Source: Candidatus Uhrbacteria bacterium (GTDB taxonomy: Bacteria > Patescibacteriota > Patescibacteriia > JACRJV01). Taken from it: a DNA stretch of 41,390 nt. Positions 8,391-10,424 of the stretch are shown one piece after another. The DNA lies in NCBI GenBank assembly GCA_016215325.1, contig JACRJV010000011.1:1-41390 (forward strand), given 5' to 3'. Each line of letters opens with the position of its first letter. Within the stretch, counting starts at the first letter, position 1. The notes below the pieces were generated by a model that worked only from the letters and a program-made list of their open reading frames with translations, did no database searches and was not told the DNA's origin. Position numbers and translations under genes: made by a program.

Positions 8391-8648
8391 TTAGGCATTG
8401 GGACTAAACCCCCGGAACAGCGGGGCGAAGATCCAAAGAATAATATTGCCAAGCAGGTTGGTTACCATTAAGAAGCCGATGAAGGTAATGCAGATTCCCG
8501 TGAGCTTGTAGAAGAGCCGGCTGCCTCCGCTGGAACCCAGCCACCGTTCTGCAACTTCAATGCCGCCCATGTTTTGGTACAACCATTCCGACTTAAGGGT
8601 CAGAAGGATTCCAATGGCCGCGATGATAACTCCAACAATGATGCGCAT
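8391..8648 (-). CDS. Small two-helix membrane protein, unknown function
   Basis: An 85-aa hypothetical protein between two tRNA genes on the same strand. It has an N-terminal hydrophobic helix (residues 2-17, IIVGVIIAAIGILLTL) and a second one near residues 52-75 (CITFIGFLMVTNLLGNIILW), with a short glycine/serine-rich loop between them. There is no signal cleavage site, and the C-terminus is short and likely exposed. I do not recognise the family. The ATG lies 12 bases downstream of the tRNA-Val 3' end, suggesting co-transcription with the tRNA genes. Coding status rests on the clean two-TM pattern and the fit between the tRNAs. Confidence 0.65.
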   Translation of the reverse strand: MRIIVGVIIAAIGILLTLKSEWLYQNMGGIEVAERWLGSSGGSRLFYKLTGICITFIGFLMVTNLLGNIILWIFAPLFRGFSPNA

Positions 8649-8660
8649 AGTATGTTTCTT

Positions 8661-8734
8661 TGGGCGCTTAGGGACTCGAACCCCAGACCTTCTCGGTGTA
8701 AACGAGACGCTCTAACCAGCTGAGCTAAGCGCCC
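8661..8734 (-). tRNA. tRNA-Val (anticodon TAC), no encoded CCA
   Basis: On the - strand: acceptor GGGCGCT/AGCGCCC, anticodon stem TCTCG/CGAGA around loop TTTACAC, T loop TTCGAGT, discriminator A at 8661. The next bases on this strand are AAG, so CCA must be added by the CCA-adding enzyme, whose gene lies at 13388-15016. Confidence 0.95.
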
Positions 8735-8802
8735 GCAAAGTAAGCGTATCCTATCATGAACTTATCCGCTCGCCAAGACCAACGGTTAAGGACGCAAGAG
8801 AG

Positions 8803-9387
8803 GTCGACCGGATACCTTGTGAGGGGTATCTATTGTTCACACATCCATCCGGGATGTTTGGCCGAGCGCTTGAAAGCGTTCGTCAAACAATGGGAATGGG
8901 GAAGTGAACAATGGGTCGACGTCATTGCGTCCTTGGGGAAAGAAGGTGGCGTGGTGCACAGTCCAAAACGAGAGATCAACGAAACAAGCAAGCAAGTAAG
9001 TGAGAGGTGGTGAAACAGGAGCGGAAGAGGAATGGGGTGCTTGTTGTTGGGTTGAATTCGTTTTGGGCTTTGCGTTGTGCTCGCGGGCACTGATTGATTC
9101 GAAGTTGAGATGAGTGACGGGCTCCCCTAAAAAAATTCGTGAGAGGGTGCGCTCAATAGCTCAAGATCAAATCAACAAACCACAGCCCCTTCTGGGGCCG
9201 TCCGCGTTGGGGCGGCGAGGATGAGATCGGATCGCGGGGAAATGTTTAAACTTTTGGGCTGCGGAACTCACGTCCTCCTGCGGGAGGAACACGATTGAAG
9301 CTCAACCATAATCGGCCTCAGCTTCAACCGTTCGCTCAAACAGTCCTCGCTATAAAAGTTTAAACATTTCCCCGCGACCTCGTTTTT
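8803..9387 (+). ncRNA. Candidate structured non-coding RNA, family unknown
   Basis: The 8735-9485 interval has no credible reading frame but many perfect complementary segments. A three-way junction with no more than one or two unpaired bases is formed by GTCGACC/GGTCGAC (8803-8809 with 8914-8920), GATACC/GGTATC (8811-8816 with 8825-8830) and ATTGTTCAC/GTGAACAAT (8832-8840 with 8904-8912). Within the last arm are CATCC/GGATG (8842-8856) and GAGCGCT-TGAA-AGCGTTC (8864-8881). Further along, CAAC plus AACAAGCA (8977-8990) pair with TGCTTGTTGTTG (9038-9049), GCCCC/GGGGC closes a four-base loop (9185-9198), and a 24-bp stem (9232-9255 with 9354-9377) encloses two more hairpins. A T-run follows at 9383-9387. 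The G-T pair inside the 8864-8881 stem would be a C-A mismatch on the other strand, which favours + strand transcription. I see no tmRNA, RNase P or SRP signature. Ends are approximate. Confidence 0.55.
9232..9377 (+). repeat. 24-bp perfect inverted repeat enclosing two hairpins
   Basis: The arms 9232-9255 (starting TCGCGGGGAAATG) and 9354-9377 (ending CATTTCCCCGCGA) are exact reverse complements over 24 bases. CGAGG at 9216-9220 can extend the stem with CCTCG at 9378-9382 across an 11-base bulge. The 98-base interior holds TCCTCC-TGCG-GGAGGA (9273-9288) and TTGAAGCT/AGCTTCAA (9295-9302 with 9320-9327). It is either the 3' domain of the candidate RNA or a small palindromic element of its own. 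Confidence 0.85.
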
Positions 9388-9485
9388 AGAGAGAGAAGAA
9401 AAATGAATGGTTTGATCACATCCTGATCGCCCCAACGGGGAGTCGGCAATTCAAGGTGCTCTGGAGAAGTGCCCAAGAACGGTAC

Positions 9486-9516
9486 AAAAAAAAGCCCGAC
9501 CTGTCAATGGCGGGCT
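9486..9516 (-). terminator. Rho-independent terminator of the beta-helix operon
   Basis: On the - strand AGCCCG/CGGGCT forms the stem (9511-9516 with 9493-9498) followed by eight T residues. It lies about 20 bases past the stop of the beta-helix gene. A partial copy of the stem arm, GCGGGCTCTTGGC, is repeated at 9524-9536. Confidence 0.85.
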
Positions 9517-9536
9517 CTTGGCTTGCGGGCTCTTGG

Positions 9537-10424
9537 CTAATATTCAAAATAGAAATCTTTTGTGTTGTTCAAAAAAGTATTTTCTTTACGAAGCCTCTCT
9601 TCCAATGTTGGATCGCTCGGTGGCACGAGGAGAGATATACCACTTCCACATTTCTCAATAGTATTACCGGTAATTTGTGGTGCCCCTCCGTTAATGGTGA
9701 GGCACGAGCGATTCGGGTTGGGTCCAAAATGATTATTTCGAATAATCGGTGAGCTGTTATGCATATCGATTGACTCATGGCCAGCATTGGAAATTGTATC
9801 GGAAAATATCTCTGCTCTATTGTTGTTGAGACAAATTCCACACTCCCCGATATTGCTCAATATACTATGGCTTATTTCAGTACTGTCACCCATGGGCGCC
9901 AAAATACGATAGTCGCTTATATCGGCATACGATACAATGCCGTTTTTGATTTCCAATCGGTTCCAATCATACCGTGTCGGGTTTTGGGAATCTGATCGAA
10001 GCGTAATTCTTTTGTCTTTGGTGCCCACAGCCCGCAATACCCCTCTAATTATTATCGAAATATGATTGGCTTCATCGCGGTACGGCTCATCGGGTTGCGC
10101 GCCACAGCGATCATTTTCCTTGGATATCATTCCCGTGAGTAAGTCGTAATTTTCAATTCCATCACAGGATTCTCGTCCAAATAGATTGTTGACATCTTTA
10201 TTGGCTGAAACAGTTACTATCGTTCCCGGAAGAATCGTTACAGTTACCCATGGCATTACCAAAATATCTCCCGTTACTCTTATGCGCCCGCTCCAAATTT
10301 GATTTCGTTTAAGGGTTCCAAACACGTCTCTATTTGATACTCGTTGAGGAATTGAGCTGTAGAAAAAAAATCCGCTGCCGCTAAGGCCAATCAACATGAT
10401 TAACATTAAAACTTTGTTCTTCAT
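9537..10424 (-). CDS. Secreted or membrane-anchored parallel beta-helix protein
   Basis: A 295-aa protein with an N-terminal hydrophobic segment (residues 4-24, KVLMLIMLIGLSGSGFFFY) that is either an uncleaved anchor or a signal peptide. The rest has the character of right-handed parallel beta-helix proteins: repeated short turns such as GIVSYADISDY, STEISHSILSNIGECGICLNNN, AEIFSDTISNAGHESIDMHNSSPIIRN and GGAPQITGNTIEKCGSGI, with regular Asn/Gly positions. Cysteine pairs (CGICLNN, CLTINGG, KCGSG) could form disulfides outside the cell. Such folds occur in polysaccharide-active and adhesin proteins, but no catalytic residues can be assigned. It sits downstream of cysH and the DUF2061 gene on the same strand and is followed by a strong terminator. 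Confidence 0.75.
   Translation of the reverse strand: MKNKVLMLIMLIGLSGSGFFFYSSIPQRVSNRDVFGTLKRNQIWSGRIRVTGDILVMPWVTVTILPGTIVTVSANKDVNNLFGRESCDGIENYDLLTGMISKENDRCGAQPDEPYRDEANHISIIIRGVLRAVGTKDKRITLRSDSQNPTRYDWNRLEIKNGIVSYADISDYRILAPMGDSTEISHSILSNIGECGICLNNNRAEIFSDTISNAGHESIDMHNSSPIIRNNHFGPNPNRSCLTINGGAPQITGNTIEKCGSGISLLVPPSDPTLEERLRKENTFLNNTKDFYFEY

Follow-up and report, generated by a model that had tools for sequence, protein, structure and literature searches.

A dispersed hairpin element with a conserved tip and locus-specific arms in an intergenic interval of Candidatus Uhrbacteria

The window analysed here, a whole stretch of 41,390 nt from a contig of Candidatus Uhrbacteria bacterium (JACRJV010000011.1, assembly GCA_016215325.1), contains an interval between a tRNA-Val gene and a gene for a NosD/beta-helix protein that a sequence-only reading had taken for a single structured RNA of about 600 nt, transcribed from the plus strand. 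The features of the interval and its borders are as follows.

8661-8734, minus strand: tRNA-Val gene, with transcription directed away from the interval
8748-8776, minus strand: possible promoter of the tRNA gene (TTGGCG, 17 nt, TAGGAT), seen by eye and below the scan threshold
8788-8934, plus strand (only suggested, by fold energies and z-scores): module 1, a three-way junction separate from the hairpin element
8955-9075, strand unassigned: module 2, a long interrupted stem (z -5.1 plus, -5.6 minus)
9201-9228 with 9414-9441, either strand: weaker outer inverted repeat, 28 nt, 82% complementary
9232-9255, either strand: left stem arm of the hairpin element, locus-specific, 24 nt, 100% complementary to 9354-9377
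9260-9269, minus strand: tip box A, TGCGGAACTC on plus and GAGTTCCGCA on minus, near-invariant in 64 aligned copies that were selected by box A itself
9273-9288, either strand: first inner hairpin of the long form, predicted on both strands
9293-9331, either strand: second inner hairpin of the long form, predicted on both strands, with 12-nt arms (9291-9302/9320-9331) that are 92% complementary
9335-9350, minus strand: tip box B, CTCAAACAGTCCTCGC on plus and GCGAGGACTGTTTGAG on minus, an exact match in the box searches
9354-9377, either strand: right stem arm, locus-specific, the complement of the left arm
9484-9520, minus strand: possible terminator for the NosD/beta-helix gene, lying between it and the element, seen by eye and absent from the scan list
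9537-10424, minus strand: NosD/beta-helix gene

No ORF with a Pfam match lies between the tRNA-Val and the NosD/beta-helix genes, the ORFs at 8756-9013 (plus) and 8830-9090 (minus) giving none at E up to 0.1, in agreement with the earlier view that the interval holds no plausible gene. The stretch 8780-9400 folds far better than its shuffled versions (z -12.5 for plus and -10.2 for minus, 20 shuffles each), and the claim of strong structure was borne out on both strands. Per-module analysis with 200 shuffles on plus and minus strands showed that 8786-8934 (z -10.3 plus, -10.1 minus), 8955-9075 and 9232-9377 (-8.7 plus, -9.2 minus) stand out of the interval, and that 9076-9200 is weakly structured (-2.4 plus, -2.7 minus). 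Among the helices described earlier, the exact 24-bp stem (9232-9255/9354-9377) was recovered, as was the three-way junction, which is predicted on both strands and closed by 8788-8797/8925-8934; of a proposed 12-bp helix with a 47-base loop, the 47 enclosed nucleotides stand, but the exact helix is of 8 nt (8983-8990/9038-9045) and extends further only with interruptions. Searching the whole window against Rfam at the gathering score gave tRNAs only, as did 18 further carrier loci, and Rfam 15 returned only four unrelated sub-threshold matches for 8735-9540 at E up to 10, consistent with the suggestion that no described RNA family fits; the collection covers GOLLD, ROOL, OLE, tmRNA and RNase P. 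The kinship with GOLLD, ROOL or OLE that had been considered is limited to the size of the interval and its closeness to a tRNA, and it is not supported: there is no Rfam match, and the repeated part is of about 150 nt and stands alone. A scan of 8600-9600 on both strands identified no sigma-70-like promoter.

The two left modules (8788-8934 and 8955-9075) are real folds, distinct from the hairpin element, and may belong to a separate RNA. Module 1 is predicted to be more stable on the plus strand (-81.8 versus -67.7 kcal/mol for minus, over 8786-8934). A covariance model built from its single sequence matched only itself among 271 genomes, the other 270 yielding no relative in a search of low power whose strict filters lose weak matches, and produced no further convincing match in 387 kb of the genome it comes from. 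Covariation is therefore unmeasurable in 8788-8934. This module may represent a genuine RNA in this lineage, and a plus-strand RNA from 8788-9075 alone would be possible.

When 8735-9540 was compared at the DNA level with the rest of its genome, short matches to the 3' module appeared elsewhere, with TGCGGAACTC and CTCAAACAGTCCTCGC in common and embedded in long inverted repeats of locus-specific sequence. The supposed RNA of about 600 nt is therefore not supported as one unit, since its 3' third is a short dispersed element that occurs without the rest in its own and in other genomes. Box B, taken as a 17-mer with up to 2 mismatches, was located at eight places in the genome, the window and seven more (one for the reversed-pattern control), and the covariance model R1 gave nine matches in this genome at E up to 0.1, matching 9244-9366 of the window on the minus strand with E 1.6e-7. 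In a census of 386,787 own-genome bases, the window included, 13 long inverted repeats were found versus none after block shuffling; box B (up to 2 mismatches) occurs in three of them, in the window and on contigs C13 and C17, with a divergent form on C19, and two more have loops of about 100 nt with at most weak resemblance to the element. By eye, two of the 13 inverted repeats enclose apparent tRNA genes between arms of 22-24 nt (L198:16096-16195 and L200:12778-12895, on contigs C13 and C14 of the same genome, G000).

The element is not confined to this genome. R1 matches at E up to 0.001 were present in 24 of 271 class genomes, and the exact 16-mer of box B in 11 of 285, where the reversed-pattern control was zero in every genome listed. 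In GTDB genomes, at least 120 stretches carry the two boxes 10-40 nt apart, and the 80 matches listed place the exact boxes in about seven phyla, the hosts including Beta- and Gammaproteobacteria, Coriobacteriia/Eggerthellaceae, another member of Actinomycetota, Myxococcota, Nitrospirae, Desulfobulbaceae, Gastranaerophilales and several Patescibacteria. Alignment of 64 sequences gave the minus-strand consensus GCGAGGACUGUUUGAG - hairpin - GAGUUCCGCA, in which the boxes form a conserved tip, paired with each other around a variable inner hairpin. No description of the element was found in the literature, including searches with the box sequences as text, most subscription papers being outside reach.

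The stem below the tip is locus-specific. Arm alignment scores reached at least 13 in 142 of 207 near-unique copies and stayed below 13 in 65, and across 131 copies the median pairing was 13 with the own arm versus 6 with the arms of other copies. In the own genome the arms of seven copies are unrelated, none of the six others resembling those of the window, a comparison made by eye. The extent of the stem is uniform, with a median of 29 nt and quartiles of 27-32 among 98 copies scoring 18 or more; when arms of 90 nt are allowed, stems exceed 45 nt in 21 of these 98. Under a pairing scheme of N-N', GC/GC, GGACU with AGU-UCC and a bulged U, followed by a variable hairpin, 93.4% of cells are paired versus 80.3% after shuffling, and 85 cells are doubly changed versus 30.8, in both cases against a shuffled control that ignores the relatedness of the copies. 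Covariation beyond chance is thus present in the element, although single-stranded DNA would yield the same signal; the support for P2 is conservation and not covariation, because P2 hardly varies. No correlation was observed between the intactness of the core and the quality of the arms in the narrow range sampled. An intrinsic terminator has a T run directly after its stem; in the window copy, a TTTTT at 9383-9387 (plus) lies 5 nt past the arm, and by eye none is found behind the six other own-genome copies. The outer repeat 9201-9228/9414-9441 is perhaps an older nested hairpin, or unrelated.

Orthologous gene junctions were compared in a genus of four species, G139, G177, G285 and G286 (the G177 locus L017 is identical in sequence to L087). 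Between atpD and atpC the element is present in three of the four species, and G286 has an empty site made up of the atpD stop codon, 9 nt and the atpC start. One of the arms at this junction is native, because the tail of atpD aligns in all four species; the second arm is the complement of that tail and is worded differently in each species. At the iPGM|fpg junction the element is intact in two species, with arms extending into the KPLI-stop codons; in another the tip is altered and the arms barely match, and one species lacks the element. The arms again track the gene across species between gatC and gatA and behind a glycosyltransferase gene, and at these four sites, which were chosen because their flanks aligned, arms score 16-22 with their own partner versus 5-13 between species. 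A fifth orthologous group (L226, L253 and L241) showed no clean tracking, the arms of L253 being poor. At the orthologous junctions inspected, an intact element is built from the 3' end of the adjoining gene, with its stop codon, and from the inverted complement of that end, matched anew from species to species. The empty sites may have arisen by loss, and they are too diverged to define the ends of the element.

The arms of 142 copies were aligned with equal scores for every mismatch type. G.U pairs number 117 on the core minus strand versus 34 on the plus strand, and purine-purine mismatches 173 versus 53; counted by copy, the ratio is 85 to 18 in favour of minus, and p-values on these counts are overstated because the copies are related. 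The minus excess in G.U pairs appears in every orientation class: 33:10 for copies behind a plus-sense gene alone, 18:7 behind a minus-sense gene alone, 30:7 between convergent genes and 36:10 for copies behind neither; it is weak in the minus-stop-only subset of the class sample alone (10:6) and absent in the seven own-genome copies alone (3:3). Statistically, the better-folding strand is therefore the minus strand, 5'-GCGAGGACTGTTTGAG...GAGTTCCGC-3', irrespective of the direction of the neighbouring gene, and the proposal that the whole interval is transcribed from the plus strand runs against the stem mismatches of the 9232-9377 family. The skew may instead represent selection against a plus-strand hairpin. 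A mutational origin of the skew was considered and rejected: if leading- or coding-strand deamination were the cause, G.U would be expected on core-plus, the reverse of the observation, an argument that rests on the two genomes with clear skew.

Taken together, we give about an even chance to the reading that 9232-9377 is a copy of a dispersed bacterial hairpin which acts single-stranded, as DNA more probably than as RNA, with a tip read by a putative factor and arms whose complementarity is restored through compensatory or templated change. The minus strand would form the working hairpin, and single-stranded DNA is preferred over a transcript because the asymmetry ignores gene direction, because copies lie antisense within tight operons and because no promoter was seen here. 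The stem would stay paired through compensatory change under selection, through quasi-palindrome template switching aided by the tip, in which one arm is copied anew from the other, or through both, and the data do not separate selection from templated copying. Spread would be by rare insertion, with retention mostly just behind stop codons. A broader version is possible and more tentative: a pan-bacterial class of tip-read hairpins, in which the near-invariant tip of about 26 nt would drive snap-back copying of the 3' end of the neighbouring gene, the inverted arm would be rewritten as the gene evolves, and a widely shared putative protein would read the tip on one DNA strand.

The same helices with compensatory change are RNA-like, and G.U pairs confined largely to one strand would also be produced by a new family of structured minus-strand ncRNAs with a long P1, conserved internal loops and a P3 hairpin, present as several small regulatory or protein-binding RNAs per genome. 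We consider this somewhat unlikely, given that the skew is the same for either orientation of the neighbouring genes, that copies are antisense in tight gene pairs (gatC|gatA and atpD|atpC), and that 8600-9600 contains no promoter-like site.

The placement of the copies along chromosomes bears on a second alternative. All R1 matches lie on a single strand of the chromosome-sized contig in G139 (13, on C3) and G285 (8, on C1), most copies being in the half with strong GC skew, where the core plus strand is the G-rich strand. G073 has three copies on one strand without clear skew, and other contigs are mostly one-stranded, with C11 of G188 and C142 of G049 mixed. Both contigs, G139 C3 and G285 C1, combine one half of strong GC skew with another where the skew is close to zero, an odd pattern of replication or composition in this genus. 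One-strand placement in G139 and G285, together with long, perfect, locus-specific arms that track the gene, would be expected from a functionless by-product of replication, in which a hairpin-prone tip triggers quasi-palindrome template switching that rewrites one arm, and the G.U skew comes from stable hairpins being selected against on the opposite strand. The available part of PMC6649704 discusses template switching in connection with inverted repeats, which counts in favour of this explanation. It leaves the conservation of the tip across phyla and the uniform stem length unexplained, and we regard it as unlikely.

With respect to genes, 64 intergenic copies with a gene on both sides comprise 23 convergent, 7 divergent and 34 co-directional sites, and 56 further copies lie inside ORFs of at least 100 aa, many of which, from simple ORF calling, are probably not genes. 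In one 685-aa LepA/EF4 ORF (L039:191-2245) the element is in frame, the tip codons reading LAAEL ... SNSPR, and the Pfam domains are kept. The first copies had suggested that the element is nearly always sense to its upstream gene, an impression that weakened when 142 copies gave 41 with a plus stop only, 30 with a minus stop only, 34 with both and 37 with neither. What is left of it is a difference in distance: for genes in plus sense, the sense of the core, 32 of 50 copies have the tip no more than 40 nt from the stop codon, versus 11 of 41 for genes in minus sense (Fisher p 0.0007).

Dispersed, intergenic copies at more convergent than divergent sites (23 versus 7 of 64), with arms that are related within G188, resemble a conventional MITE or REP family that a known transposase mobilises and whose arms have simply diverged. 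A Y1 transposase was considered as the mover and rejected: PF01797 (Y1) was detected in 11 of 13 carrier genomes, but box B with up to 3 mismatches occurs in none of 25 Y1-transposase loci, and G139, with 13 elements, has no Y1 match. No match was found among phage records. The two-box scans of viral contigs gave zero for both the short and the long form, and these contigs contained one CTCAGACAG variant (L372, an element with inverted arms) and one bare 17-mer. Among plasmids, the short query gave partial matches in two records and the long query none, both weak tests because the stem varies. This near absence from viral contigs and plasmids, the lack of shared sequence among own-genome arms, the use of a native gene end as one arm and the Y1 result make a MITE or REP family quite doubtful. 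That 9232-9377 is the 3' domain of one plus-strand RNA of about 600 nt is very improbable, since this domain stands alone elsewhere in a family that favours minus, the link 9076-9200 is weakly structured and module 1 has no relative, even though the whole interval departs more strongly from its shuffles on plus (z -12.5) than it does on minus (z -10.2) and 8786-8934 is more stable on plus.

A single-stranded hairpin read at its tip, our preferred reading, has partial counterparts in known systems. Integron attC sites are single-strand, strand-asymmetric hairpins behind the stop codon of a gene, with a free stem sequence, conserved ends and a variable middle, organised in cassette arrays. The element is likewise a strand-asymmetric hairpin behind a stop codon with a free stem sequence, but its middle is conserved and its ends vary, and its copies are scattered and not arrayed as cassettes. 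Bacterial palindromic repeats are usually recognised by fixed arms. According to the part of PMC3733652 available, GTAG- or CGTC-tagged REPs of 20-40 bp with the tag at one end, and the REPINs moved by RAYTs, are small palindromic repeats of many phyla, intergenic, downstream of genes, more often at convergent than at divergent sites, and sometimes inside genes. The element is similarly found in many phyla, between and behind genes, more at convergent than divergent sites and sometimes within genes; it differs in conserving the tip and leaving the stem free and gene-following, and no repeat-flanked Y1 transposase gene was found for it. By eye, no shared unpaired GTAG/CGTC end tag was noticed in the printed own-genome and G188 copies. 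Like MITEs, the element is non-coding, about 100-170 bp long, has inverted arms and occurs in several copies, whereas the terminal repeats of MITEs are common to copies and the arms of the element differ at each locus in this genome; arms are related in G188, so this difference applies to some genomes only. Coding palindromes of Nematomorpha mitochondria are inverted repeats that overlap coding sequence and show concerted arm change, for which template switching is proposed (PMC6649704, in the part available). The arms of the element also overlap coding sequence and change together, but in different genomes, and no conserved tip element is described in that part of PMC6649704.

The element combines free arms with a fixed tip, from Patescibacteria to Proteobacteria, Actinomycetota and Myxococcota, and the invariance of the tip would imply a common reader. 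The tracking of coding 3' ends (atpD, iPGM and others) by one arm provides a natural record of compensatory selection or of ongoing template switching. The locus also carries a warning that orphan large RNAs predicted by folding alone can contain DNA repeats.

Several variants of the element were observed. G188 has 17 R1 matches, and the copies inspected have visibly related arms that are altered in matching ways, indicating recent spread in this genome. A second type of tip (TGCGGGGCTCG ... CTCGAACAGGTCCTCG) is found in the genus of G139, where the arms are again locus-specific. At L133 and L160, from a Myxococcota MAG, copies of the tip are tandem or partly duplicated, and copies from Betaproteobacteria (such as L055, L104 and L046) have a longer frame, in which an extra shared motif, TGCGYTRCTCG, flanks the variable stem on both sides.
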